The notes under the pieces were generated by a model that was not told the DNA's origin, ran no database searches, and worked only from the letters and a program-made list of their open reading frames with translations. The translations under genes and the position numbers were made by a program. A DNA stretch of 37,892 bases from Balneolales bacterium (lineage in GTDB: Bacteria; Bacteroidota; Rhodothermia; Balneolales; Cyclonatronaceae): positions 1 through 37,892 of the forward strand of contig SLDG01000217.1 of assembly GCA_007125355.1 (NCBI GenBank), given 5' to 3'. Of this stretch, positions 1-29,258 are shown one piece after another; position 1 is the first letter of the stretch; each line of letters begins with the position of its first letter.

Positions 1-713
1 CCAAAAACCACCTGCTGCGCTATTTCCGGTCGCACTTGATTAACCACAACCCGGGAGGCCTCGCGCTGTACACTACCTGTAGTTTCTGTAGATCCGTTAA
101 CTGAAACACGAACCTGAGGCTCTCTCGAAACTTCCACTTGGTTTGGTAGGGTGGTTTTAATGGCTTTCTTAGCATTGCTATCAGCTTGCCATGGATACAC
201 TTTCTGAATGTCTATCTGCGGCTTTTCTTTGTTAACAGTAATACTTGAGAATGCACTATCATTTTCCCCTTTTTGAGTCTCATTGGGCTCAACCCCAGTT
301 TGTGTATTAACTCGATCACCGTTATTAGTCAACCTACTCATTACATTATAGTCATAGAACAGAGCCGTCTCATGTGTCTCTTTATTTATTTGATTATTAT
401 AAGAACTACTGTCAAGATTTAAAGCCTCGACTTGTTGGCCTATTTGGGGGTGTAGAGGTTGCTGTTCAAGAGAAGTTCCAATTAGTTCTTCTACTATCTG
501 ATCCGTTTTACCAGATGAAGTGTTAGCTTCACCGGATTTATCATTATGTTCTTTATTTTCAGGTTTTTCACTGATAGCAATAGCACCATTTAAGAAAGAC
601 CTGAACAGCCCACCTTGAGTAATATTAGATCCATTACCATTGGCTTGAGCTAACTTTACAGAGCCAAGAGTATACTTGTTTTTGCCTATATTTTCTATAT
701 TAAACAAATTCAT
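1..713 (-). CDS. fliK: Flagellar hook-length control protein FliK, N-terminal part (cut by window edge)
   Basis: An open frame runs from an ATG at 713 off the left edge (about 237 codons seen, no stop). It starts MNLFNIENIGKNKY and is rich in Asn, Gln, Ser, Thr and Glu with no obvious fold, which is typical of the secreted, poorly conserved N-terminal half of FliK proteins. The conserved C-terminal type III switch domain would lie outside the window. The ATG overlaps the stop of the upstream motE-like gene as ATGA (710-713), so translation is probably coupled. The call rests mainly on position after fliJ/motE at the end of a fliE-fliJ operon and on composition; no diagnostic FliK motif is visible here. 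FliK measures hook length and switches export specificity in the family. Confidence 0.6.
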   Translation of the reverse strand, partial: MNLFNIENIGKNKYTLGSVKLAQANGNGSNITQGGLFRSFLNGAIAISEKPENKEHNDKSGEANTSSGKTDQIVEELIGTSLEQQPLHPQIGQQVEALNLDSSSYNNQINKETHETALFYDYNVMSRLTNNGDRVNTQTGVEPNETQKGENDSAFSSITVNKEKPQIDIQKVYPWQADSNAKKAIKTTLPNQVEVSREPQVRVSVNGSTETTGSVQREASRVVVNQVRPEIAQQVVF

Positions 714-1357
714 AACATTATCTTTTGCATAAGATTTGCTGCCCTACCAGGTGCAAGTGATCTTAGCATTTTTTCTCGTTGAATATTTCCAGCTGTATCA
801 TACAGACGCAAAAGTTGTTGATCATCTAATTGCTTAAGTATAGGAGCAAGTTCCTCTTCTTCAAGATTTAATAAGCTCTTAACTCGTTCAGAGAATTGAC
901 TTTCATGTTCACCATTATCAGCAACTAACTGAGCTGTTGATTGAGTTTGGCTGACTGTCTGATCAGGTTCGCCTCGTTGTCTGTTTACCAATGTGTCTTG
1001 GTCCTCTAGGCGTTCTATATCATCTAAGGCTAATTCTTTTTGTTCTTTTAAAGCTTCAATTTCAGTTATTAACTCATTCTTTTGATTTAGTAAAGAATCA
1101 ATTATTATTTCCAGGTTTTTCCGCATTTGTAAGCGAGCCTCTGATTCTTGATGAACTATTTCTGTTTTGATTGGGTCTACTAGTACTATATCACTTTCAA
1201 AATATTCAATCTCATCATTTCCATTCGACCTAAATTGTTCCATAGCTCTATTATATCCCTCTTCATTTATATATGGATACAAAAAGAAAAACAAAATAAG
1301 TAGTACCAAGAATGGTACAATTATCAGACCTAATATGATTAGTATCTTTTTTATCAT
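710..1357 (-). CDS. motE: MotE/YlxF-like flagellar protein with MgtE-N-like C-terminus
   Basis: 215 residues. A single N-terminal membrane segment (about residues 5-27, mostly Ile, Leu and Phe) is followed by a long charged coiled coil (about 70-120) and a linker rich in Gln, Ser and Thr. The C-terminal helical domain contains APILKQLDDQQLLRLYD and ends LAPGRAANLMQKIML. That C-terminus matches the MgtE intracellular N-domain-like module of MotE (Rhizobium) and YlxF (Bacillus), which lie next to fliJ/fliK in many flagellar operons. In alpha-proteobacteria MotE acts as a periplasmic MotC chaperone; in other groups the role is unclear. It starts 2 nt after fliJ ends and overlaps fliK by 4 nt, so it is part of the basal-body operon. 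The family call is good; the exact function is inferred. Confidence 0.75.
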   Translation of the reverse strand: MIKKILIILGLIIVPFLVLLILFFFLYPYINEEGYNRAMEQFRSNGNDEIEYFESDIVLVDPIKTEIVHQESEARLQMRKNLEIIIDSLLNQKNELITEIEALKEQKELALDDIERLEDQDTLVNRQRGEPDQTVSQTQSTAQLVADNGEHESQFSERVKSLLNLEEEELAPILKQLDDQQLLRLYDTAGNIQREKMLRSLAPGRAANLMQKIML

Positions 1358-1359
1358 GA

Positions 1360-1788
1360 TTATTTGCCAAATGATTGTATAGAAATTTCATCAATGGTAT
1401 TTTGTTCCGTTCTCTGTAACTCTTCTTGGAATAGTTCAATCTTAAATTCTTTCACCTTTTCTAAAATTGTTCTTTTCTGATGAACTTTTTCCAACTCTTT
1501 CCTTACTGCCTGAATTGATTTTTTTACATCTGTCTCTTTATTATCAAGTTTTTCTATCTCTAAATGAACTTGTTGTAAGTAGTGCGAATGCATTTTAATG
1601 TCATGTATAGATTCAGCATTTGTGCCATTAGAATCATTTATAAAGGTATTCAACTTTTCTTTTACTTTAGCCTGAAGATCTTTAATTTGATTTTTTTTCT
1701 GCATTTCTTTAGCTAGCTTTAGCTTTTGTATGTTCTCTTCATACTTTCTGACTTTGAGTACCGGATCGAGAGAAAAGTTAAACTTCAT
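1360..1788 (-). CDS. fliJ: Flagellar export chaperone FliJ
   Basis: 142 residues, the usual FliJ size. The start MKFNFSLDPVLKVRKYEEN matches the characteristic FliJ opening (F-x-LxxVLxxRxxxE). The whole chain is a charged, heptad-like coiled coil with few breaks, rich in Lys, Glu and Gln. FliJ is the central stalk-like component of the FliHIJ ATPase complex and escorts export chaperones at the cytoplasmic face of the flagellar type III secretion system. It lies 13 nt downstream of fliI and 2 nt before the motE-like gene, in the order expected for fli operons. Confidence 0.88.
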   Translation of the reverse strand: MKFNFSLDPVLKVRKYEENIQKLKLAKEMQKKNQIKDLQAKVKEKLNTFINDSNGTNAESIHDIKMHSHYLQQVHLEIEKLDNKETDVKKSIQAVRKELEKVHQKRTILEKVKEFKIELFQEELQRTEQNTIDEISIQSFGK

Positions 1789-1801
1789 GAGATATAAGTT
1801 T

Positions 1802-3133
1802 TTAATGCTGAATTATTTTTTTTAGAGATTCCCAGGGATTATCACTAAAATCGTTTTCACTTATATCTTGTATCAAAAATGATACCAATTCCTGGTTTTT
1901 CTTTATAGCCTCATCAATTTTAGGATTGGAACCCTTAACATAGGCACCGATATTAATGAGGTCCTCGGCCTCACGGTATGTTGCTAAAAGCTCTTTTGCC
2001 TTCATGGCTACTGCTCTGTCTTCATCACTAATTATCTTCGGCATTACTCTGGATACACTTTGCAAAACATCTATAGCGGGATAGTGATTTTTGTGGGCTA
2101 GGCGACGTGAAAGAACAATATGACCATCTAAAATAGATCTTACAGCGTCAGCAACAGGCTCATTCATATCGTCATTATCAACTAATACTGTATATAAACC
2201 AGTAATACTGCCCTTCTCTGTTTTTCCTGCTCTCTCGAGTAGTTTTGGTAGTACAGCAAATACACTCGGGGTGTAACCCTTGGTTGTTGGAGGTTCGCCA
2301 GAGGCAAGTCCTATTTCTCTTTGAGCCATTGCTACTCGAGTTACAGAGTCCATCATTAATAGGACATTTTTTCCGCAGTCACGGAAATATTCTGCAATTG
2401 CCGTTGCAGCAAATGCACCTTTTATTCTACTCATTGCAGCCATATCAGAAGTAACAGCTACTACAACAGATCTATTTATTCCATCTTTTCCTAAAGAATC
2501 TGTCACAAACTCTTGCACTTCACGGCCTCTTTCTCCAATAAGTGCAATTACATTAACATCTGCAGCAGAATGTTTCGCAATCATTCCCATTAATACACTT
2601 TTCCCAACTCCAGAACCAGCAAACAACCCTAATCGCTGGCCGACGCCCATAGTATTCAGAGAGTCAATCGCCCTTATACCGGTAAACATAACCTTATCTA
2701 TTTGTTTACGCTCCATTGGTGCAGGGGGTTGAACATATACGGGGTTTTTAGTGCGACAAATTATGGAGCCCAAATTATCAATTGGCTCTCCATTAGCGTT
2801 TAAAACTCTGCCAAGTAACTCAGCCCCAACTGGCACAGACAGAGTTTGCCCAACTTTTTCGACCAAACAACCCGACTTAATTCCATCAACTCTATCATAA
2901 GGAATTAATATTGTTTCCCCATTTTTTAGCCCAACAGCTTCAGCAACAACTTTTTTACCATTGCTTGAATGAATAGAATAACTTTCCCCTATACTTGCTT
3001 CAAGGCCAGCACTTTCTATTACAGACCCGACTACGGATGTTACTTTACCATAGCTTTTTGGCCTAAATGATTCTTTTTTAATTTCACTACTAAAATTAAT
3101 TATTTGATCTTTAGCAATATTTTCGTATTTCAT
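1802..3133 (-). CDS. fliI: Flagellum-specific export ATPase FliI
   Basis: 443 residues, typical length. There is an F1-type beta-barrel N-terminus, then Walker A AGSGVGKS (about 172-179) preceded by GQRLGLF. The stretch ALIGERGREVQEF and the Walker B strand NVLLMMDSVTRVAMAQREIG are followed by the family signature GEPPTTKGYTPSVFA. This is the hexameric ATPase that sits below the flagellar export gate, controlled by FliH and stimulated by FliJ. It is 58 nt downstream of fliH and 13 nt upstream of fliJ. All catalytic motifs are intact. Relatives in non-flagellar type III secretion (SctN) look similar, but the basal-body neighbours settle the assignment. Confidence 0.96.
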   Translation of the reverse strand: MKYENIAKDQIINFSSEIKKESFRPKSYGKVTSVVGSVIESAGLEASIGESYSIHSSNGKKVVAEAVGLKNGETILIPYDRVDGIKSGCLVEKVGQTLSVPVGAELLGRVLNANGEPIDNLGSIICRTKNPVYVQPPAPMERKQIDKVMFTGIRAIDSLNTMGVGQRLGLFAGSGVGKSVLMGMIAKHSAADVNVIALIGERGREVQEFVTDSLGKDGINRSVVVAVTSDMAAMSRIKGAFAATAIAEYFRDCGKNVLLMMDSVTRVAMAQREIGLASGEPPTTKGYTPSVFAVLPKLLERAGKTEKGSITGLYTVLVDNDDMNEPVADAVRSILDGHIVLSRRLAHKNHYPAIDVLQSVSRVMPKIISDEDRAVAMKAKELLATYREAEDLINIGAYVKGSNPKIDEAIKKNQELVSFLIQDISENDFSDNPWESLKKIIQH

Positions 3134-3170
3134 AAGCTTACCATTAAAAAGCGTGCCTTATAAAGTACCC

Positions 3171-3184
3171 CTCTTTATAAAGAG
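3171..3184. repeat. 14-bp perfect palindrome in the fliH-fliI gap
   Basis: CTCTTTATAAAGAG is a perfect 14-bp palindrome in the 58-nt spacer between fliH and fliI, the longest gap inside the flagellar operon. A related copy of its core (TTATAAAG) lies about 15 nt away, at about 3159-3166. It could be an RNA hairpin that tunes the mRNA or an operator. No U-tract follows that would make it a convincing terminator. Confidence 0.3.
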
Positions 3185-3191
3185 TATCATT

Positions 3192-3845
3192 CTAATCCCA
3201 GTGTGATAATATTACAGATTTCTTTTTAAAATCATTAAGCATTAGCTTGAATTTGCGTATTAACTTTTTATCATTATCCTCTAGTATAAACTCACCTTGG
3301 CTACACTCTTCAGTAAGTATAATTTTGACAGTTAATTCATCATCGAACTCATTTATCAGTTTTTTTGCTATTTCTGCATCTAAATGATTAACTTTTAGTT
3401 CAGTTCTAGTTTTTGAATTCATTTTTTTTAGAACTGATCGTAGTTCTGCTTCTGTTTTTTTAATAATATTGCTATCATTTTTGGGTTTTGATGCTATAAT
3501 TTTTTCGGCAATATCACAAGCAAGATTGATTAAGCCTGGTGCCGTTTCTTCCTGAAGATTCAACCATTGTTGATGAGCTGCTTCGAATGCTTTTTTTAAT
3601 ACCGTTATTTTTTTCTCTAACTCTGCATTAGCTTCATTTTTTCCAATTATAATCCCCTCTTTTAAACCATGTTTGTACGCTTTCTCACATTCTCGTTTTA
3701 GTCGTTCTTGCCAATGCTTTATTTGTTTCTCATGTTTTAAGTTTGCACTAATGAGTTTGCTCTGATAATCATCAGTATCATTATCAGGGATTTTTTCTTC
3801 AAAAATCATCTGATAATTGAGACGGGTTACATTATTATTTTCCAA
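3192..3845 (-). CDS. fliH: Flagellar assembly protein FliH
   Basis: 217 residues. The N-terminal third is unstructured and charged. A long helical stretch (about 45-105) contains the AYKHGLKEGIIIGKNEANAE pattern, with the small-residue periodicity typical of FliH/YscL. A C-terminal alpha/beta domain follows (LACDIAEKIIASKP ... LTEECSQGEFILED). FliH dimers bind and restrain FliI and tether it to the C-ring. The frame opens with TTG at 3845, preceded by GAGG at 7-nt spacing on the minus strand, which supports this non-ATG start; the first in-frame ATG comes 12 codons later. It is followed after 58 nt by fliI and preceded by fliG, 45 nt away. Confidence 0.85.
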   Translation of the reverse strand: MENNNVTRLNYQMIFEEKIPDNDTDDYQSKLISANLKHEKQIKHWQERLKRECEKAYKHGLKEGIIIGKNEANAELEKKITVLKKAFEAAHQQWLNLQEETAPGLINLACDIAEKIIASKPKNDSNIIKKTEAELRSVLKKMNSKTRTELKVNHLDAEIAKKLINEFDDELTVKIILTEECSQGEFILEDNDKKLIRKFKLMLNDFKKKSVILSHWD

Positions 3846-3890
3846 TTTACATCCTCAGATTAAACAATTAGCAATAAATATAAAGAACGA

Positions 3891-4931
3891 TTATTCGACT
3901 ACTTCTTCTTCATCTACTTTTCGAGTACTAATTAATCCATTTTCTTCAAGCTCTTTTATCTTCTTAATAATCCTTTGTTGTGCCTCTTTAACATCTTTCA
4001 ATGGCACAGGCCCCAGTGCCTCCATGTCCTCTTGTAACATTGCAGCCGCTCTTTGAGACATATTACTAAGGAATTTTTCGGTAAGTTCTTTCTCTACACC
4101 TTTCAAGCCCATAACCAAATCAGATTTCTCCATTTCATTGACAATAAGTTGAACCGTTTTATCATCAAAGTGAATAATATCTTCGAATAAGAACATCTGT
4201 TCCTTAATATCAGCAGCCATTTGTGGGTCTCGCTCTCCAATAATGTCAAGTACATTTTTTTCAACTGAGATATTAGCTTCATTTAAAATTTGTGCTACTG
4301 TAGCTGTTCCACTATTTACGCGGTCACCAAGTGTGTCCAACCCACCCATATGCTCTTTAATTACGCCTTCAATTTCTTGTATTACATCCATTGACACTTT
4401 TTCCATTGAAGCTAATCTATAAATAATTTCCGCTTGCATATCCTGCGGCAAATAACTCAGTATCTCTGCTGATTTGTCTGTATGTAATTGAGAGAATATT
4501 AGCGCTGCCACCTGCGGGTGTTCATTTTGCACAAAGCTCGCGATTTGAGTTATTTTACTATCCTGAAAGTCTTCAAACACATTACTCTCTGCTTGAGCTT
4601 TTAATTTCTTAAGCATTTGTTCTGATTTCTCATTGCCCCCTAATTCATGTAACAATGCTTCAGCATAATCAACACCTCCCTCTAACAAGAACTTTTTAGC
4701 TTCCATTAAGTGGTAATACTCTTTTAAAACCTCTTCCGTTAATTCGGGTTTTACATTTTCCATTTTTGCAACCTCAAGAGTAATTGCTTCAATCTCACTT
4801 TGCTTCATAGATCTTAGCATTTGCGCTGAAGCCCTGGCACCAACAGATATTATTAATATCGCTGCTTTTTGTGGCCCGGTTAACTCAGCCACACTTAATG
4901 GACTGTTTTTGGTATTTTGCTTTTTTGCCAT
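3891..4931 (-). CDS. fliG: Flagellar motor switch protein FliG
   Basis: 346 residues, normal length. The N-terminal domain opens with LTGPQKAAILIISVG, which is the FliF-binding part. The middle domain carries the EHPQ motif in NEHPQVAALIFSQL. The C-terminal charged torque helix region contains GLKGVEKELTEKFLSNMSQRAA and DVKEAQQRIIKKIKELEENG. FliG is the C-ring protein that contacts the stator and couples proton or sodium flow to rotation. The gene lies 8 nt after fliF, which fits their 1:1 assembly. A short acidic tail (VDEEEVVE) ends the protein. Confidence 0.96.
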   Translation of the reverse strand: MAKKQNTKNSPLSVAELTGPQKAAILIISVGARASAQMLRSMKQSEIEAITLEVAKMENVKPELTEEVLKEYYHLMEAKKFLLEGGVDYAEALLHELGGNEKSEQMLKKLKAQAESNVFEDFQDSKITQIASFVQNEHPQVAALIFSQLHTDKSAEILSYLPQDMQAEIIYRLASMEKVSMDVIQEIEGVIKEHMGGLDTLGDRVNSGTATVAQILNEANISVEKNVLDIIGERDPQMAADIKEQMFLFEDIIHFDDKTVQLIVNEMEKSDLVMGLKGVEKELTEKFLSNMSQRAAAMLQEDMEALGPVPLKDVKEAQQRIIKKIKELEENGLISTRKVDEEEVVE

Positions 4932-4939
4932 TTTTTATA

Positions 4940-6568
4940 CTATGTCATCATTGCCCGAACTACCTGAGCAGCTTCACGCGGTTTAAGTTCTACGTAATCT
5001 TTTATTTCTTCTACAACTAATGTTTTTTCTTTTAGCTGTTTTCTAGATTCCTGAGATTTATTTTCATCAATAAATCTTTTAGACTGTCCTGATTCATTTT
5101 GATCTTTATATGATTCATAATCAGTTTCTGCCACATTCTTTAACCCGTTATTGGGTGAATTGGTCATTACCTGTATTCCTTCAATACTCATTTTTTTTCT
5201 GGTAGTGAAAATCATAAACACTATAATCAAGGCTGTAATGAGTATTATAACCCATCTAATAATATCTTGGGTCTGTATTGGCTGTGTAGTTTGCAATCCA
5301 ACTGTATCAAAAATAGTAGGATCATGAAACTCAAATTGTATTATGGTGAGTTCATCTCCCCGGCCTGGCTGAATACCGAGCGCTACCCTTACTAAATCAC
5401 GAAATTCATTAATTTCATTCTGACTATAAGGTTGGCTAATAACAGTCATTTGCCCATCATTGACTTCCTGCATGACTTGTTTGTGATTTAATAAAACCGA
5501 TGCAGAAATTCGTTTTATTTCACCTTGAGATTTTTCGTGAATTTCACGGATGCGGTTAACATCATAATTTCTGGTTTGTATAGTTGATTCGTTAGATCTA
5601 TTATTTACTATAACAGTTTCACCCCTTCTCTCAATTGGTGTAAATTCATCGAATGGTACTTGCTGTGATGATTGATCAGAGGTGTTTTCAGAACGTCGTT
5701 CCTCTGATATTATAGTGCGACTATCGGGATCGATTAGTTCCGACTCGCGAATAATTTTATCAAAATCATGCTCCACAGATACTCTCACCATGCTATTACC
5801 ATGCCCTAAAGCTCTATCAAGCATGCTCTGAGTGCGCTCAGTTAAATATGTTTCCACCCCAACTCTTAATTCTTTTTGCATCGTACCCGAGGCTTGATTC
5901 AGATTGCCATTAATGCCATCAGTTAGGCGATTACCAGCTTGATCTAAAATTACCACAGCTTCAGGGTTTAAGCCTTCCACGCTTCCGGATATTAATGATA
6001 CAATACCCTTTACCTGCTCACCATTCAACCTCGTACCAGATTTTAAATTTAAGATTACAGATGCAGAGGCTTCAACTGATGCTTGTTGAAATGCTCTCCT
6101 TTCCGGCAGAACTAAATGTATACGCGAAGTTTCGACCTGATCCAGGCTGTTAATAGATCTGGCAAGTTCACCTTCAAGTGCTCTCTTTTTATTCACCTGT
6201 TGCATAAAGTCTGTCATCCCAAGGGCATTTTCATCAAAAAGTTCATACCCTTTTATATCTGAGTGAAACAAATTTTTTGATGCCAGCTTTAGGCGTAAAC
6301 TGTGTACTTGTGAAGTAGGTACCAAAATAGATCTGCCATCATTTTCTAACATATACCTTACACCCTCACTCTCTAATTGCTCTACGATTTCAGATGCCAC
6401 ATTGGGCTGCATTGATCCAAAAAGTAAAGAATAATCAGGTTTAAGTGCCCAATAAAATAAGTAACCAAGCGAGATTAGAATAACCAAAACAAGGCCTAAG
6501 AACATAAACCTTTGCGCTGGGCTAAGTGGTATTACAAAATTGTATGCTCGTTCTACTATATTAGCCAT
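4940..6568 (-). CDS. fliF: Flagellar MS-ring protein FliF
   Basis: 542 residues. There are two transmembrane helices, at about 20-41 and about 444-464, flanking a large periplasmic region with YscJ/FliF ring-building motifs (e.g. LALGIQPGRGDELTI before the second helix). The extreme C-terminus, LKPREAAQVVRAMM, matches the FliG-binding peptide of FliF. FliF builds the MS ring on which the rod, switch and export gate assemble. It is preceded by fliE (9-nt gap) and followed by fliG (8-nt gap). Nothing looks truncated. Confidence 0.95.
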   Translation of the reverse strand: MANIVERAYNFVIPLSPAQRFMFLGLVLVILISLGYLFYWALKPDYSLLFGSMQPNVASEIVEQLESEGVRYMLENDGRSILVPTSQVHSLRLKLASKNLFHSDIKGYELFDENALGMTDFMQQVNKKRALEGELARSINSLDQVETSRIHLVLPERRAFQQASVEASASVILNLKSGTRLNGEQVKGIVSLISGSVEGLNPEAVVILDQAGNRLTDGINGNLNQASGTMQKELRVGVETYLTERTQSMLDRALGHGNSMVRVSVEHDFDKIIRESELIDPDSRTIISEERRSENTSDQSSQQVPFDEFTPIERRGETVIVNNRSNESTIQTRNYDVNRIREIHEKSQGEIKRISASVLLNHKQVMQEVNDGQMTVISQPYSQNEINEFRDLVRVALGIQPGRGDELTIIQFEFHDPTIFDTVGLQTTQPIQTQDIIRWVIILITALIIVFMIFTTRKKMSIEGIQVMTNSPNNGLKNVAETDYESYKDQNESGQSKRFIDENKSQESRKQLKEKTLVVEEIKDYVELKPREAAQVVRAMMT

Positions 6569-6577
6569 CTAATTTTC

Positions 6578-6886
6578 CTAAATCTGCATTCTGCTAATTT
6601 CTTGATAGGTTTCAATAGCTTTGTTTCGAATTTCCACCATCATCTGAAAACTAATCTGTGCCTTTTGCATACCAATCATTACATCATGTACATTATCTGT
6701 TTTGCCAGCTATAAAGTTTTCTATATTCTGGTCAGATACCTTCATTGCCTGATCTACGCTTCCTACAGCACGTGTTAGTAAGTCAGCAAAAGATGTTTCG
6801 GGCTTAACAGATTTTAGAACACCATTTGCAGGTCTGGATTCTAAAATAGACTGTGGCTGTAATGCTTTAATTTCTATTGGATTCAT
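6578..6886 (-). CDS. fliE: Flagellar hook-basal body protein FliE
   Basis: 102 residues, typical for FliE. The conserved C-terminal helix pair is clear: TSFADLLTRAVGSVDQAM, then NVHDVMIGMQKAQISFQMMVEIRNK and AIETYQEISRMQI. FliE joins the MS ring to the proximal rod and is an early export substrate. The gene lies directly upstream of fliF and 20 nt after the 75-codon unknown gene. Confidence 0.94.
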   Translation of the reverse strand: MNPIEIKALQPQSILESRPANGVLKSVKPETSFADLLTRAVGSVDQAMKVSDQNIENFIAGKTDNVHDVMIGMQKAQISFQMMVEIRNKAIETYQEISRMQI

Positions 6887-6906
6887 AACTAACTTTATTT
6901 AAAGGC

Positions 6907-7134
6907 TCATATTCTTCTGTCTATGTTCAATCCGCGGGTCAAAAATTCACTTTTTTGAATTTTACCCTGACTTGTGTAACTATCCACAAATTTTGACCCC
7001 TTGAACTTATTGTTAATCATTGCAGACTCGTCGTTAGAAAGTGCAGGCGGCTTTGGTGCTACAGCGGCTTTGCGTAACGCGCTATTTTGGGCAGTTTTAT
7101 GAGTTTGTTGTGTATATATTGATTCAATATTCAT
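6907..7134 (-). CDS. Unknown 75-residue protein embedded in the flagellar operon
   Basis: 75 residues. It starts MNIESIYTQQTHKTAQ only 3 nt after the flgC stop and ends 20 nt before fliE, so it is co-transcribed and probably translationally coupled. It has no signal peptide, no membrane segment and no cysteines. Composition is polar and basic with a Pro/Ala-rich middle (AAVAPKPPALS), and it ends FLTRGLNIDRRI. I do not recognise a family. The small, probably disordered, Ser/Thr/Asn/Gln-rich character resembles secreted rod substrates or small flagellar chaperones, but that is inference from position only. Confidence 0.7.
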   Translation of the reverse strand: MNIESIYTQQTHKTAQNSALRKAAVAPKPPALSNDESAMINNKFKGSKFVDSYTSQGKIQKSEFLTRGLNIDRRI

Positions 7135-7137
7135 AAT

Positions 7138-7644
7138 TTAGATTTCTAAAGCACGTTTAATAATTTCTTTTTCCGCCTCGATACTGCTTAGATTAGCTTC
7201 ATACAATCTATTTGCACTAACCAATTGTGTCATTTCTCTGATAAGATCAACATCCGGGTACTTCACCATTCCGTTTTCGTCAGCATCTGGATGATTTGGA
7301 TCATATTCGAACCTAAAATTTTCTTGCTCAATTACTTCAAATTGTGGCCCAAGATTATTAAATCCAGTGTTTTTAGAACCTAGCGCGCCAGAACCAGCCG
7401 TTGATATATGATTAGGATGTGTAGTTTTCAGTGAGCTCAAACTATCTACAAGAACTTTTTTAAAACTTGTACCTGTAGGCTGCGTAGATTGTACAGATTG
7501 TGGCTTGTATACCTCTTTTGAGACCGGAGAAGATGTAGTTTGTGCATTAGCAATATTCCTTGAGGCTGTTGAAATCTTTTCACGCTGGAGTGCTAACCCC
7601 TGTGAAGCTGTTTGGAAAGTTGAAAAAACTCGGTCTGGTAACAT
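7138..7644 (-). CDS. flgC: Flagellar basal-body rod protein FlgC
   Basis: 168 residues. The N-terminal rod helix FSTFQTASQGLALQREKISTASRNIANAQTT contains the flagellar rod signature. Further on are the FlgC-specific stretch YDPNHPDADENGMVKYPDV and a C-terminal heptad helix LIREMTQLVSANRLYEANLS. FlgC is a proximal rod subunit exported by the flagellar type III system. It lies 18 nt after flgB and 3 nt before the small unknown gene. FlgC is usually around 135-150 residues; the extra length lies between the two halves (about 40-95). Confidence 0.95.
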   Translation of the reverse strand: MLPDRVFSTFQTASQGLALQREKISTASRNIANAQTTSSPVSKEVYKPQSVQSTQPTGTSFKKVLVDSLSSLKTTHPNHISTAGSGALGSKNTGFNNLGPQFEVIEQENFRFEYDPNHPDADENGMVKYPDVDLIREMTQLVSANRLYEANLSSIEAEKEIIKRALEI

Positions 7645-7662
7645 TATTCTCTAATTTCGGAT

Positions 7663-8007
7663 TTATCTATTGATTCCTGTTATCCCCGTTCTAAGCATTT
7701 CAAAATGATGGCGAAGGCTTCTGGCTACTACATTCACTCTAATTTGTGTATCTGCCATCTCTATAAGTTCATCTTCGAGTATCACTTTTTCATCGTTTTC
7801 TACAATTATTGGATTTACATCAATCATTGCCTTTTGCCCTCTGCTTTCCTGAACTCTTAGCAATTCCTGTTCAAACTGAACTTCATGCTTCTTGTAGGCT
7901 GGTGTATCTATATTTGCAATATTTGCTGATGTAATACGATGACGTAATGAATACGTATCCATCGCATTTTGCATTAACTGAGATATATTGCTGTCAATTA
8001 ATTTCAT
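7663..8007 (-). CDS. flgB: Flagellar basal-body rod protein FlgB
   Basis: 114 residues from the ATG at 8007 (MKLIDSNISQLMQNAMD). The frame stays open to a TTG at 8025 (120 residues), but MKLID matches the usual FlgB start, so I prefer the ATG. The rod signature LRHRITSANIANIDTPAYKKHEVQFE and the C-terminal helix ADTQIRVNVVARSLRHHFEMLRTGI are intact. FlgB is the most proximal rod protein. It is the first gene of the operon, with a sigma-54-type promoter element about 80 nt upstream of its start. Confidence 0.93.
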   Translation of the reverse strand: MKLIDSNISQLMQNAMDTYSLRHRITSANIANIDTPAYKKHEVQFEQELLRVQESRGQKAMIDVNPIIVENDEKVILEDELIEMADTQIRVNVVARSLRHHFEMLRTGITGINR

Positions 8008-8088
8008 GGCTAATTCTTTTGTCAATTAAGCATATCAGTTAGCTTGATAGCCCTGATAATTGAAATTTTTACTTGTAAGTAGTATTTA

Positions 8089-8103
8089 GCAATTGCTATG
8101 CCA
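8089..8103 (-). promoter_or_regulatory. Sigma-54 (-24/-12) promoter for the flgB-fliK operon
   Basis: On the minus strand the sequence reads TGGCAT-AGCAA-TTGC followed by T. It matches the RpoN consensus TGGCAC-N5-TTGCW at every position except the last base of the -24 box, with exact GG-to-GC spacing. Transcription would start near 8077, leaving a leader of about 70 nt before flgB. Sigma-54 control of rod/MS-ring genes is known from several phyla (e.g. Helicobacter, Campylobacter, Vibrio classes). The rest of the 8008-8323 gap is AT-rich and shows no other clear signal; no RpoN activator site could be identified by eye. Confidence 0.7.
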
Positions 8104-8323
8104 TGATTTTGAAGCCTCTCTGAAATCATAAAAAAAAGCATCCAAGCACAAACATAATCTTTACAATTAAAAAAAGAGGAACATTTCTTCCACTTCAAGG
8201 CAAATTTTTCCGAAACGCTTTTTCCTGTGAATTGGCTATTAAGATTTTTTCAATACGTGCTGATAAACATACTAAAGCAATTTTTTAAATAACCATGACA
8301 GGATTAACCAAATTATTGAAAAC

Positions 8324-9313
8324 ATGAATGCTTCTGTTGATTATACCTACAGCAATCCAACTATTTCAGAATTAGAAAACAGTTTACTCAAACTGCAGAG
8401 ACCCATTTTTGTGATTGATAGTAAGACCCACACTATTTTATCATCTAACCAAAAAAGAAATAGTTACAGCAGATATGACAACTATTCCGGAAAACAAATT
8501 AAAGATGTGCTATTAAATTATGACACCGAAGACCACCGCGCACCAGTCTTCTACGTTAATACTTGGTATAAGGTTGAAGAGGAATTATTTGAATTTGATG
8601 GAGAAGAATTACTTATAGTTACACTGAATGAATGCGCCGGAATACATAGTCAAGAAAATCTTCAAGGTATAAGATCTATGATAACAATGTTATTGCATCG
8701 TTTTCGCTCACCACTTACAGCTATAGGTGGTTATGCAGACATATTATCTACAAAATCAGATGAATCATCCAGTAAATTATATGCAAATAATATCAAAAAA
8801 GGCACATTTAGTATTTCCACAATTCTCGATGAGTTAGAAGTTCTTCTGCAAGATAATTATAAAGCAGAAAAGGAAGTCATTCGTTTTGAAAACTTCTTAG
8901 AAAAAATCACTCCTGTTTGGAGAGAAAAATCTTTGGCTCAAAGACTAAGATATTCCGCACGGAAAAACGGCATAATTATTGGCAGCAGTGAGTTGCTGAT
9001 TAAAATTCTTACCATACTCATACAAAATGGCTTTGATCATAGTATAGACCCTGATAGTGAAGTAGAAATTTATGTTAAATCACCGTATTGCATTGAGGTA
9101 AGAAGTAAGGGTAAAGCCATTAAAGAAGAAGATTACGAAACTATTTTTAACCCTTTTGTTACAACGCGTGCCGACAAACTTGGTACAGGACTAACGCTAG
9201 CTCGAATTCTGGCTCATAAAATGAACGCGTCAATCCACTTAAAGTCCGGTGAAGAGGGAAATGTTATTTTTTCAATTAACTTAGCTCCACTGGAATTGGC
9301 CTTAGTTAATTAA
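8324..9313 (+). CDS. Histidine-kinase-like sensor protein with atypical H and G1 boxes
   Basis: 329 residues, soluble, no membrane segment. An N-terminal PAS-like region (about 14-105) is followed by a dimerisation helix with LLHRFRSPLTAIGGYADIL (candidate phospho-His 125) and a HATPase domain. That domain has an N box (ILIQNGFDHS, Asn 235), an F box (IFNPFVTT) and a G2 box (GTGLTLA). The usual Glu after the H-box His is Arg, and the G1 box DxGxG reads SKGKA (261-265), so the adenine-contacting Asp is missing. Divergent from the sigma-54-driven flgB operon, it resembles by position the NtrB/FlgS/FleS-class kinases that activate RpoN-dependent flagellar promoters, but no response regulator is in the window. 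It may be a weak or pseudo-kinase. Confidence 0.8.
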   Translation: MNASVDYTYSNPTISELENSLLKLQRPIFVIDSKTHTILSSNQKRNSYSRYDNYSGKQIKDVLLNYDTEDHRAPVFYVNTWYKVEEELFEFDGEELLIVTLNECAGIHSQENLQGIRSMITMLLHRFRSPLTAIGGYADILSTKSDESSSKLYANNIKKGTFSISTILDELEVLLQDNYKAEKEVIRFENFLEKITPVWREKSLAQRLRYSARKNGIIIGSSELLIKILTILIQNGFDHSIDPDSEVEIYVKSPYCIEVRSKGKAIKEEDYETIFNPFVTTRADKLGTGLTLARILAHKMNASIHLKSGEEGNVIFSINLAPLELALVN

Positions 9314-9336
9314 CTCTCAAACAACAATACTTTTAA

Positions 9337-9543
9337 CCCGAATTATTCACGAAAGTATGAAATTTAAAGCATAAACCATCGAATACTAGTGATATAGATA
9401 AATACTTTGTTCACTCAAATTTGGGTATAGTTAAAATGCTGCACACCGAGCCTGCCTGACTGCATCGGCAGGCAGGCGAAGCGATTCCCACGAAGTGAAA
9501 TTTTCCCGAATTACTCTGGGCAGGCTTTGGTGAATAATCTGGG
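9337..9543. mobile_element. MITE-like element, copy A (207 bp, TTAA target duplication)
   Basis: The element is bounded by terminal inverted repeats: CCCGAATTATTCACGAAAG on the left and, read from the right end, CCCAGATTATTCACCAAAG (16 of 19 match). It is flanked by TTAA on both sides (9333-9336 and 9544-9547). A perfect 9-bp hairpin, GCCTGCCTG/CAGGCAGGC, lies at 9450-9477. There is no coding capacity. About the first 165 bp are near 90% identical by eye to the reverse complement of copy B at 27928-28229. It lies between the convergent kinase-like and DUF3987-like genes and may also serve as a bidirectional terminator. Confidence 0.75.
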
Positions 9544-9573
9544 TTAATACAGTAATCAAATCCCTGAAAAAGG

Positions 9574-11154
9574 TTATCTCTCTTTATAGAAAACACCCTT
9601 TTTTAGTTTTTTCAGGATGTTTTTTTCATAGTAATTGGTTAAGTATCGGTTAGCTGTTCTTTTGGGGATATTCATGCGGGAAGCAATACTAAGTGCCTCT
9701 GAAGTACTAAACAATACTGGTAATAAATTATAAAAACGATCATACCTATCCCCTCTCGAATATTCATTCAACATGACCGGCAAGTTTTGATAAATTCTGA
9801 ACGCATGCTTTATATGTGTATCAATCAACCATAAAGCTGCAATAATATCTTCATCTCTGGCCAAAATGTAATTCTCATTACTAATATCTTCCAATTCCTC
9901 TGCTGCACGCAGTAAACGAAATGTAGACACTAGCTTAAGGCAATAAATAGAAGCATTTATTAGCATCTTATTTAAAGATTGTGATACCCCACTTTCGTTT
10001 AGAAGAGCTTTTTTTTCCTTAAACATATCATCTATCATAACCCAATGAGCGTCTTCGAGCTTAACTTGTAGCTTTCTACCAATATTTTTCCTCATCATAT
10101 ACAACCTGAATAACTCAGACGACACCTCTTCAATATCCGCAGAAAGCTCCTCAGACCATTTATCGGGCTTGACAGACTCCCAGTCTGATTTATCATCAAA
10201 CAAATAAAAGAAATAGTTTGTCAAATGTTGTTCGCTATACAGCTCAGCTAACTTCTTTAAGCCATTTAAATCTCCACAAAAAACAGTATTAGCTGATGGT
10301 TTAAGAACTCTGCTTTTATCATTATACTTACTTATCCTGATTGTTTGTTCATTAAAACTATCCTCGATAATATCTGAAAATATAACATTTCCAATTAGCT
10401 TACTGTCTGATATATTACCCACGTTTTGATCAAATATCAGAATCCTGCCATTATTATTGTATAGTGATTCCTGTATTTTTTCATCTCTTGTTGACAATGA
10501 CAGTAACCGAATTTGATTACTACCACTTTCAAGAAGTATCTTATTTCTTATTATTTCAGAAAAATCTAACGCTTTTCTAACATACCTGTTAAACACACCA
10601 TGCGGATTTACCAAATAGCATTTCAAGGAAGTTGAAAATTCACCAATCGCGTGTTGTACATAAATGTCATTTAAATGATAGGATAAAACCGGTAAAGATG
10701 AGATCAGAAATGTGTCTTTTTTCCTATTGCCTGGTATGCTGTTACAGCATTTTTTTAACTTTTCAGGTAAATTTTGGTAGACTACCTCAGGAATTGTAGG
10801 TGTATTTGATATATAATGTGGTGTTTCTGGTTCAAAACCACACTGTATTCTCAGTTCGTTTAGCTCATCTAGTACAGATTTATAATTTGATAACAAAACA
10901 TGAGATGAAAATGATACTCTTTGAGTCCCGACTAGTTCTTGCTGATGTTCCGACAAATCGCCCACTAAATTTAACTCTAAAATTTTCTTCTTAACTTCCC
11001 AAAAAGTTATGTCCTGCAGCGTCTTTTGACTAATTGCGTCAACAGGTAAATCTTCTGCAATTCTCTCTCTGGTATTCTCCCAAATAACACATTCCTGCCT
11101 GGAAAAATAATCAGGTGGTGGGCCTATTTCTAGAATGATCTTTGCTGACTTCAA
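9574..11154 (-). CDS. DUF3987-like protein with lost P-loop and a terminase small-subunit-like N-terminus
   Basis: 526 residues. Residues about 8-112 (GPPPDYFSRQECVIWE ... SNYKSVLDELNELRIQCGFEP) follow the helix pattern of P27-family phage terminase small subunits. From about 120, IPEVVYQNLPEKLKKCC and DTFLISSLPVLSYHLNDIY resemble the start of the Bacteroidota DUF3987 ATPase/primase-like domain. Where that family has a P-loop (PAASGKG type), this one has NPHGVFNRY (183-191), so nucleotide binding by that site is unlikely. The C-terminus (about 480-520) is a helix-turn-helix, ALSIASRMNIPKRTANRYL. The frame begins at TTG directly after an in-frame TAA, with no ATG for over 300 codons, so the 5' end is odd. 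AT content resembles the flagellar block. The family calls are from memory, without a search. Confidence 0.5.
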   Translation of the reverse strand: MKSAKIILEIGPPPDYFSRQECVIWENTRERIAEDLPVDAISQKTLQDITFWEVKKKILELNLVGDLSEHQQELVGTQRVSFSSHVLLSNYKSVLDELNELRIQCGFEPETPHYISNTPTIPEVVYQNLPEKLKKCCNSIPGNRKKDTFLISSLPVLSYHLNDIYVQHAIGEFSTSLKCYLVNPHGVFNRYVRKALDFSEIIRNKILLESGSNQIRLLSLSTRDEKIQESLYNNNGRILIFDQNVGNISDSKLIGNVIFSDIIEDSFNEQTIRISKYNDKSRVLKPSANTVFCGDLNGLKKLAELYSEQHLTNYFFYLFDDKSDWESVKPDKWSEELSADIEEVSSELFRLYMMRKNIGRKLQVKLEDAHWVMIDDMFKEKKALLNESGVSQSLNKMLINASIYCLKLVSTFRLLRAAEELEDISNENYILARDEDIIAALWLIDTHIKHAFRIYQNLPVMLNEYSRGDRYDRFYNLLPVLFSTSEALSIASRMNIPKRTANRYLTNYYEKNILKKLKKGVFYKER

Positions 11155-11398
11155 TTAGTTTTATAAAGATTTTAACAGTAACAGTAAGCAAAAAATACTA
11201 CCGAAAATAATACTATGGTTGTGGTATGATTTATATTCAGCACCATTTTACTCACGATCTAATAAAGTGACATCACAAACAAAATAATAGTATTTACACT
11301 CCACAATTTTTACTATATAAGATTGAGTATAGAAGCTTTTAAAATAACCGTATCATAAAGCTTTCTTCAAATAGAGTATTACTCATTCATACTATTAA
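11155..11398. other. Gene-free AT-rich stretch between the DUF3987-like gene and gltA
   Basis: The stretch is very AT-rich. I see only weak signals: a 7-bp inverted pair, AAGCTTT/AAAGCTT, near 11333-11368 and a possible 24-codon minus-strand reading frame at 11172-11246 with no support. It probably carries the promoter of the DUF3987-like gene, but no clear boxes can be named. Confidence 0.4.
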
Positions 11399-11451
11399 AT
11401 AAACACCTGCCTAAAGATACTATAGATATGATATTCTAAACAGGTGTTTAT
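11399..11451 (-). terminator. Stem-loop downstream of gltA
   Basis: A perfect 11-bp stem, ATAAACACCTG (11399-11409) with CAGGTGTTTAT (11441-11451), encloses a 31-nt AT-rich loop and begins 13 nt after the gltA stop. On the minus strand the stem ends in a T-rich run (TTTATTTAAT). Position and shape fit a terminator, but the long loop is unusual for an intrinsic one. Confidence 0.5.
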
Positions 11452-11463
11452 ATAAATTCCCGC

Positions 11464-27909: not shown

Positions 27910-27927
27910 AAACAGACCCCTGCCTAC

Positions 27928-28229
27928 CCCGGATTATTCACCAAAGCCTGCCCCGACTAATTCGGGGAAATTTTCTCGTTAGAAAGGCGAAGGGGGAAAA
28001 TCCGCGGAAGGGTACCTGAGTACCCTGAGCATGATTTTTCAACTTCAACGCGGCTAACGTGGAAATTTCACTTCGTGGGAATCGCTTCGCCTGCCTGCCG
28101 ATGCAGTCAGGCAGGCTCGGTGCGCAGCATGTCAACCACACCCAAGTTTGAGTGAATGCAGTATTTATCTATATCATCAGTATGCAATGGTTTATGCTTT
28201 AATTTACATACTTTCGTGAATAATTCGGG
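27928..28229. mobile_element. MITE-like element, copy B (302 bp, CTAC target duplication)
   Basis: The ends are CCCGGATTATTCACCAAAG (left) and, read from the right, CCCGAATTATTCACGAAAG, matching those of copy A in inverted orientation. It is flanked by CTAC at 27924-27927 and 28230-28233; the right copy contains the korB stop codon. It has the same GCCTGCCTG/CAGGCAGGC hairpin (28089-28116). About 90 bp near 27976-28065 are absent from copy A and include the hairpin GGGTAC-CTGA-GTACCC (28010-28025). A short direct repeat (GAAATTTCC-like) at both edges of that segment suggests copy A lost it by recombination. It lies between convergent genes. Confidence 0.75.
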
Positions 28230-29258
28230 CTACTTCACTTCCCACGTATTTCCGCTCATGAATAAATCAGAGGTGGATTTGTAGGGGGTGTATTTTTTTG
28301 CTGCTTCTATGGCATTATAGACCTGCGCATCATAACTGACATCCTCTACCTGTCTTAAAATCCCCGTGGCGACGGGAAATTCAGGTAGCTGCATTCTTGC
28401 TAATGCCAGATGAAATGGCGAGGATTCTTCGTGCATATCATGCTTTAGAAATGCTTCATCAGGAATGGATTGCCCGAATTTTTCTTTTTTCAGTTTCATG
28501 CCATTAAGCACCAAACCGTACTCGTCATCTTTTCCGAAACGAATGGTTTCTCCGTGCGACAGCACAACCTGATTTTCGTCTTTGGTTTCTTTGGATGTAA
28601 TTTGCTCGTGAATCCCATCTGTGTAAATCACACAATTCTGCAGCACTTCAATGACGGACGTCCCCTTGTGTTTATAGGCGGCGTGCATGGTTTCTTCAAG
28701 CATTTTGTAATCTTTATCAGGCACACGGGCAAAGAAAGATGCGCCGCACCCGATGGCGGCTTCACCGATATTAAATGGACGTTCATATACACCGCCGGGA
28801 GCCGTCTTGGTTTTCAAACCTTCAGGAGATGTGGGCGAAGACTGCCCTTTGGTCATCCCGTAAATTCTGTTGTTAAATATGATGATATTCAGGTCGATAT
28901 TTCGGCGAACGGCGTGAATAAAGTGGTTCCCGCCGATGGCCATACAGTCGCCGTCTCCGGTGGCAACCCATACGCTCAGACCGGGATTTGCCAGTTTCAC
29001 CCCCGATGCCGTTGCAATAGCACGGCCGTGAATCGAATGGATACCGTAGGTTTCCATGTAATATGTAATCCTCGACGAGCAGCCAATCCCGGAAACCAGC
29101 GTGAAGTCTTCTTTCCTGACTCCAATATCAGCAAAAACCTTCCGCATGGTGTTCAAAATCATGAAATCTCCACAACCGGGACACCAACGAACATGCTGAT
29201 CGGTCATAAAATCTTTGCGATCGTACGCAACGGTATGAGGTTTAACTTCAGCCTGCAT
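28230..29258 (-). CDS. korB: 2-oxoacid:ferredoxin oxidoreductase beta subunit (2-oxoglutarate type)
   Basis: 342 residues. It is the thiamine-diphosphate subunit: WCPGCGDFMIL (cluster/TPP-proximal Cys), GIGCSSRITYYMETYGIHSIHGRA, and the Mg-TPP motif GDGDCMAIGGNHFIHAVRRN ... NNRIYGMTKGQSSPTS. With KorA it oxidatively decarboxylates a 2-oxoacid to acyl-CoA and reduces ferredoxin, or runs in reverse. The TPP core is complete; the substrate (2-oxoglutarate rather than pyruvate) is inferred from the two-subunit layout. It overlaps korA by 11 nt. Its stop codon lies in the target duplication of MITE copy B. Confidence 0.93.
   Translation of the reverse strand: MQAEVKPHTVAYDRKDFMTDQHVRWCPGCGDFMILNTMRKVFADIGVRKEDFTLVSGIGCSSRITYYMETYGIHSIHGRAIATASGVKLANPGLSVWVATGDGDCMAIGGNHFIHAVRRNIDLNIIIFNNRIYGMTKGQSSPTSPEGLKTKTAPGGVYERPFNIGEAAIGCGASFFARVPDKDYKMLEETMHAAYKHKGTSVIEVLQNCVIYTDGIHEQITSKETKDENQVVLSHGETIRFGKDDEYGLVLNGMKLKKEKFGQSIPDEAFLKHDMHEESSPFHLALARMQLPEFPVATGILRQVEDVSYDAQVYNAIEAAKKYTPYKSTSDLFMSGNTWEVK

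Follow-up and report, generated by a model that had tools for sequence, protein, structure and literature searches.

Results

Gene neighbourhood of the fusion gene

The window analysed here is the whole of a 37,892-nt stretch of DNA from a Balneolales bacterium (Cyclonatronaceae; assembly GCA_007125355.1, contig SLDG01000217.1). On its reverse strand, at 9574..11154, lies an open reading frame with a TTG start codon. Its product of 526 residues (the fusion protein) joins a terminase-small-subunit (TerS)-like part to a DUF3987 core lacking the P-loop and to a winged helix, an assignment based on the reading frame, on PF13148 and on five further orthologues. A genome search found a single copy, and annotation of the window placed it between flagellar and housekeeping genes with no other phage genes identified nearby, both as the original prediction, made from the DNA letters, had it.

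The flagellar flank consists of the operon flgB-flgC-fliE-fliF-fliG-fliH-fliI-fliJ (1360..8025, reverse strand; Pfam and NCBIfam), which has the same gene order in relatives, and of a FlgS-like histidine kinase with HisKA and HATPase_c domains (8324..9313, forward strand; Pfam), which is convergent with the fusion gene. On the other flank are citrate synthase, PPDK-like and NADH-dehydrogenase genes. A 215-bp MITE-like element (9333-9547) separates the kinase from the fusion gene; it is bounded by 23-bp terminal inverted repeats (TTAACCCGAATTATTCACGAAAG / CTTTGGTGAATAATCTGGGTTAA) and is matched 56 times across the genome, in full or in part, and a further copy is found at 27925-28232. In the related genome G006 the kinase and the fusion gene are 13 bp apart. 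The interval separating the fusion gene from citrate synthase contains a 15-bp inverted repeat with a 31-bp gap (TTAAATAAACACCTG / CAGGTGTTTATATAA; 11395-11455), a possible terminator or operator.

The position of the gene is conserved. Counting the window's own copy there are six orthologues. Five adjoin the FlgS-like kinase and the flgB operon, a single PAS-protein gene intervening in G113. The sixth (G102) is found on an 8.5-kb contig that also carries a chemoreceptor-like fragment as well as a PAS-type protein, and proteins similar to the latter occur beside the flagellar kinase in other genomes. The flagellar kinase itself adjoins flgB in nearly every flagellated locus read. We rejected the kinase as an exclusive partner of the fusion gene: flagellated Balneolales have the kinase as a core gene, whereas the fusion gene is accessory. 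Several Balneolales also have, next to the flagellar kinase, a PAS-domain protein of about 470 residues (L065, 12113-13576), and its gene is present in some genomes without the fusion gene; the L065 protein was profile-tested, and the copies of L060, L061, L062 and L069 are only similar-looking.

Upstream of flgB is a sigma54-type promoter (TGGCATAGCAATTGCT; 8088..8103, reverse strand) with one mismatch by motif comparison, and almost all loci examined have a promoter of this type, with 0-2 mismatches, either ahead of the annotated flgB start or at it. Upstream of this promoter, a conserved motif (CGGAAAAATTTGCC; 8199..8212, reverse strand) recurs in most of the flagellated loci read, whether or not they carry the fusion gene. 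Since it is present where the fusion gene is absent, it more likely serves as a response-regulator enhancer site than as a site for the fusion protein, and it is probably the enhancer-binding-protein site of a FlgR-like activator. The motif and promoter taken together were rejected as a carrier-specific binding site, as both are also found in flagellated genomes lacking the gene. Comparison of loci with and without the gene revealed no cognate site of the fusion protein upstream of flgB. The genome encodes four strong sigma54-activator domains, and the partner of the kinase could be among them. In the part of the published account on which we draw (PMC7064773), FlgSR, FlrBC and FleSR are two-component systems acting with sigma54, a scheme that the window's kinase and flgB promoter fit; that part describes no counterpart of the fusion protein. 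A literature search found no study of flagellar control in Balneolota.

The N-terminus is related to P27 terminase small subunits

Residues 1-115 (10810..11154, reverse strand) were predicted by AF2 to form four helices (residues 19-35, 43-63, 69-76 and 84-104). Neither Pfam nor PHROG produced a terminase match for the window protein alone, and Pfam did not detect the domain on single orthologue sequences. Three of the six orthologues match PHROG_83 (“terminase small subunit”; best E=1.5e-5). Furthermore, a profile of the orthologues retrieved two stand-alone P27 proteins over profile residues 6-110 (E=3.9e-9 and 5.3e-8), both of which were recovered independently with PF05119. When the orthologue N-termini were aligned with four stand-alone P27 proteins by hhalign, the probability was 98.2 with E=4.3e-14 over 102 columns; the best E was 0.041 in 100 column-shuffled controls and 0.2 among FliE, FlgB and FlgC. 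Together these profile results bear out the P27-like N-terminus that had been proposed. A structure search of the PDB with the predicted domain ranked HK97 TerS (8pop) third (TM 0.45, with a non-significant E of 2.5), and in a viral library phage small terminases took ranks 1, 3 and 4 (TM 0.53-0.60, E non-significant); this match of predicted folds is only suggestive.

The P27 small subunits (PF05119 Terminase_4, PHROG_83; prophage copies in G068 L111 and G072 L113) have in common with the domain the pattern PPxxL...W...LCxWE...LRxxLGL. The phage copies are short separate proteins, whereas the window's P27-like domain is fused to a dead helicase. In the prophage-like regions L111 and L113 the gene that follows P27 looks, by eye, like a large terminase. 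Beside the fusion gene no large terminase or packaging genes were found, the window neighbours being flagellar and metabolic. The N-terminal domain is thus related to P27 TerS, but the fusion protein is not a terminase subunit. We also observed a stand-alone P27-like protein in G058 (L110, 9480-9947), possibly part of a satellite or cryptic element: an integrase-like gene is close by, and no large terminase is obvious beside it.

The DUF3987 core has lost its ATPase motifs

The body of the protein is DUF3987-like, as had been predicted: PF13148 matches all six orthologues (best E=1.4e-11), although for the window protein alone the match is marginal (E=5.9e-6, residues 222-456, 26.1 bits against a cut-off of 27). 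With the window protein alone as query, searches of NCBIfam, PHROGs, PADLOC and the PDB (phmmer) returned nothing significant, and profiles built from the orthologues were required. DUF3987 proteins have been predicted to be mobile-element helicases from their fusion to primases (PMC5862659), and the family is used as a primase marker of phage satellites (PMC10803314).

For motif comparison, we built an alignment of the six orthologues and 14 intact DUF3987 proteins, the latter drawn from the order, class and phylum. The GKG P-loop is found in all 14 mobile-element relatives and in none of the orthologues. At the Walker A position the window protein reads NPHGVFNR (residues 183-190; 10585..10608, reverse strand), which confirms the earlier reading of this site, and the other five carry SQDGSLSF, KSGARTDR, RNDSDSVR, DGSGFAKR and SEKGNETE, five unrelated strings. 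An orthologue with an intact P-loop would have counted against the original prediction, and none has one. The Walker B ETE is lost or degenerate in 6/6, and every one lacks the SRF arginine located towards the end of the core. These changes fall within a degenerate AAA+ catalytic core spanning Walker A, Walker B, sensor and SRF arginine (residues 176-325; 10180..10629, reverse strand), delimited by the motif table and per-region identity, and they suggest that ATPase activity has been lost. The mobile DUF3987 helicases of G067 (L040), G060 (L041) and G015 (L003) can be aligned end to end with the window protein through the core, the C-terminal half and the winged helix. They differ in having an intact GKG, mostly an ETE Walker B and SRF or SRY, all of which the window protein lacks; some have long N-terminal extensions, but not the TerS-like part that forms the N-terminus of the window protein. 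From its sequence, we regard the fusion protein as a derived and presumably inactive offshoot of DUF3987 rather than an active helicase.

The full-length AF2 model of the window protein has a pLDDT of 84.7 and a pTM of 0.76. Its top Foldseek matches are MCM helicases, aligned over the core and winged helix (best E 3.4e-6). Compared with the AAA+ helicases MCM2-7 and archaeal MCM, identity is 10-15% and TM ~0.35, and the ATPase motifs are absent from the window protein.

Constraint is concentrated at the C-terminus

The core is followed by a helical C-terminal half of DUF3987 (residues 326-466; 9757..10179, reverse strand), recognised from per-region identity, and by a winged helix with the motif IPxRTAxRYL (residues 467-526; 9577..9756, reverse strand), recognised from identity and the AF2 model. 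The latter is well predicted and corresponds to the C-terminal helix-turn-helix noted earlier. Mean pairwise identity over residues 176-325 is 17% among the six orthologues versus 37% among the 14 intact relatives, and the order is reversed over residues 326-466 (37% versus 21%) and over the winged helix (49% versus 29%). The least conserved of these regions in the orthologues is therefore the former catalytic core and the most conserved is the winged helix. Outside the window the five orthologues are 24-40% identical to the window protein, with frames that are open and free of stops. Conserved C-terminal regions together with a degraded core fit a protein that is done with ATP but still uses its C-terminal part, and this pattern, together with the intact frames, is not that of a decaying fossil.

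Distribution and descent

A full-length fusion protein was found in six of the 129 genomes of the order searched. FliG_N is matched in 55 of the 129, three of these being weak matches in long frames unlikely to be FliG, and approximately 50 of the genomes are flagellated. Most flagellated Balneolales, G049, G038 and G040 among them, do not have the fusion gene, which is therefore not essential for flagella. Among 396 genomes sampled from the phylum, none outside Balneolales had a full-length copy. When 85,000 species were scanned with the window protein as single query, no relative was returned; an alignment as query succeeded, giving four named full-length relatives (PBR18_bin04A, DLM2.Bin75, coassembly_bin.34 and CSSed11_50), all of them Balneolia/Balneolaceae MAGs. 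A viral or plasmid ancestor carrying the same fusion was rejected, as none was found in viral contigs, a phage collection or plasmids. The sole relative in phage records has an intact P-loop (NAAAGKG).

In the protein tree the six orthologues are monophyletic (UFBoot 76 over all columns, 96 with the core left out), and their clade groups with the mobile helicase of G067 (100 and 99, respectively) and is nested among Balneolales mobile-element helicases. The mobile DUF3987 proteins of the order (L003, L004, L005, L040 and L041) are located elsewhere, several of them near integrase-like genes. In a tree built from six flagellar proteins of 21 genomes, all six carriers belong to one flagellar-cluster lineage. 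Here the window genome (G000) and G006, both of family f1, stand beside G101 of family f4 and apart from G001, a member of f1 whose flagellar genes belong to a different lineage. The flagellar cluster and the fusion gene have probably moved between families together, a reading that is based on the flagellar tree. Nested in the carriers' lineage are G049, G038 and G040, and since these lack the fusion gene, its loss is implied, although several of the deep branches there are weak (44-71). The association with flagella in 6/6 carriers is a raw count that ignores kinship. In the window, positions 1-11400, which hold the flagellar genes and the fusion gene, have a G+C of approximately 35%, against ~40-50% over most of the remainder; this is consistent with a separate history of the flagellar cluster.

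Discussion

The original prediction had left open whether the protein is a domesticated DNA-binding protein or the remnant of an element. The shared architecture, the loss of ATPase motifs in six divergent orthologues, the conserved termini and the flagellar synteny support the former, with DNA binding as a putative property, and we consider it very likely that the fusion protein is a domesticated pseudo-ATPase under selection. If it were instead the fossil of an integrated element, carried along with the flagellar cluster and slowly decaying, the missing catalytic motifs, the patchy distribution and the mobile-element parentage would be as expected. However, the frames have stayed intact at this level of divergence, the C-terminal regions are more conserved than in active relatives, and the position has been retained with no other phage genes identified nearby. 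Conservation already largely refutes the idea of a remnant, and we think it very improbable. A defence role had also been raised, and here a TerS-like decoy could poison phage packaging, or a dead helicase the replication of related elements. Both parts do derive from phage or mobile-element machinery, and P27 prophages are present in the same order, but the protein has no match to a PADLOC family at E<=10 and is always retained in a flagellar/chemotaxis region, not among defence genes, so that an anti-phage factor seems to us quite unlikely.

Two further explanations accept that the protein is maintained and differ in what it would do. Dead ATPases often turn into scaffolds, and since the fusion gene adjoins the kinase, the dead AAA+ fold might contact for example the kinase, FliF or FliG in an assembly checkpoint and not bind DNA at all. 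FlgS-type kinases sense the FliF/FliG ring (PMC7064773), and this would suit such a partner of the kinase or basal body. The most conserved part of the protein is the winged helix, however, which argues for nucleic-acid binding, and we regard a scaffold of this kind as rather unlikely. The winged helix would equally have been retained in an initiator-like DNA-binding protein that kept a chromosome, replicon or copy-number function from its ancestor, for which a role in element replication has been predicted (PMC5862659), with the proximity to flagellar genes being only historical. No partner primase or integrase was identified nearby, and the gene has repeatedly been kept beside flagellar genes in divergent genera; a function of this type is in our view distinctly unlikely.

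A regulatory factor had been suggested in the original prediction as well, and this seems plausible. Our preferred reading, domestication as a regulator, would begin with a Balneolales mobile-element DUF3987 helicase comprising an MCM-like AAA+ core and a C-terminal winged helix, which may have been fused with a small terminase subunit of the P27 type from a phage. The fused gene would then have been fixed beside the flagellar histidine kinase in one flagellar-cluster lineage. ATP binding and hydrolysis would have been lost afterwards, with the putative DNA-binding and oligomerisation ends and the fold between them kept. Today the protein may act as an ATP-independent oligomeric DNA binder alongside the FlgS-like kinase and the flgB sigma54 promoter, contacting DNA through the terminase-like domain and the winged helix, with the dead AAA+ fold serving as a scaffold. 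MCM proteins assemble into rings on DNA. In HK97 the small terminase binds DNA as a nonamer, the DNA being threaded through its ring (PMC11331095). Given both precedents, we infer that a ring or filament of the fusion protein on DNA is reasonable. Any effect on flagellar transcription is putative, and the linkage to flagellar genes does not prove a flagellar role. Taken as a whole, the reading of the protein as an oligomeric, ATP-independent DNA-binding regulator or architectural protein of the flagellar/chemotaxis locus, drawn from sequence comparison, appears to us evenly poised. That it would represent a new kind of regulator, in which a small-terminase domain and an ATPase-dead MCM-like helicase control flagellar/chemotaxis genes and spread with the flagellar cluster, is a possibility that we put forward more tentatively.

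The inverted pattern of constraint, with a dead core and conserved ends, may be used elsewhere to spot other domesticated helicases. In this protein two DNA-handling parts of parasitic origin, one for packaging recognition and one a replication helicase, appear to have been combined and recruited to a core locus with the motor switched off. If the fusion protein does regulate flagellar genes, it would constitute a mobile-element-derived layer on the sigma54/FlgS flagellar circuit in Balneolota.
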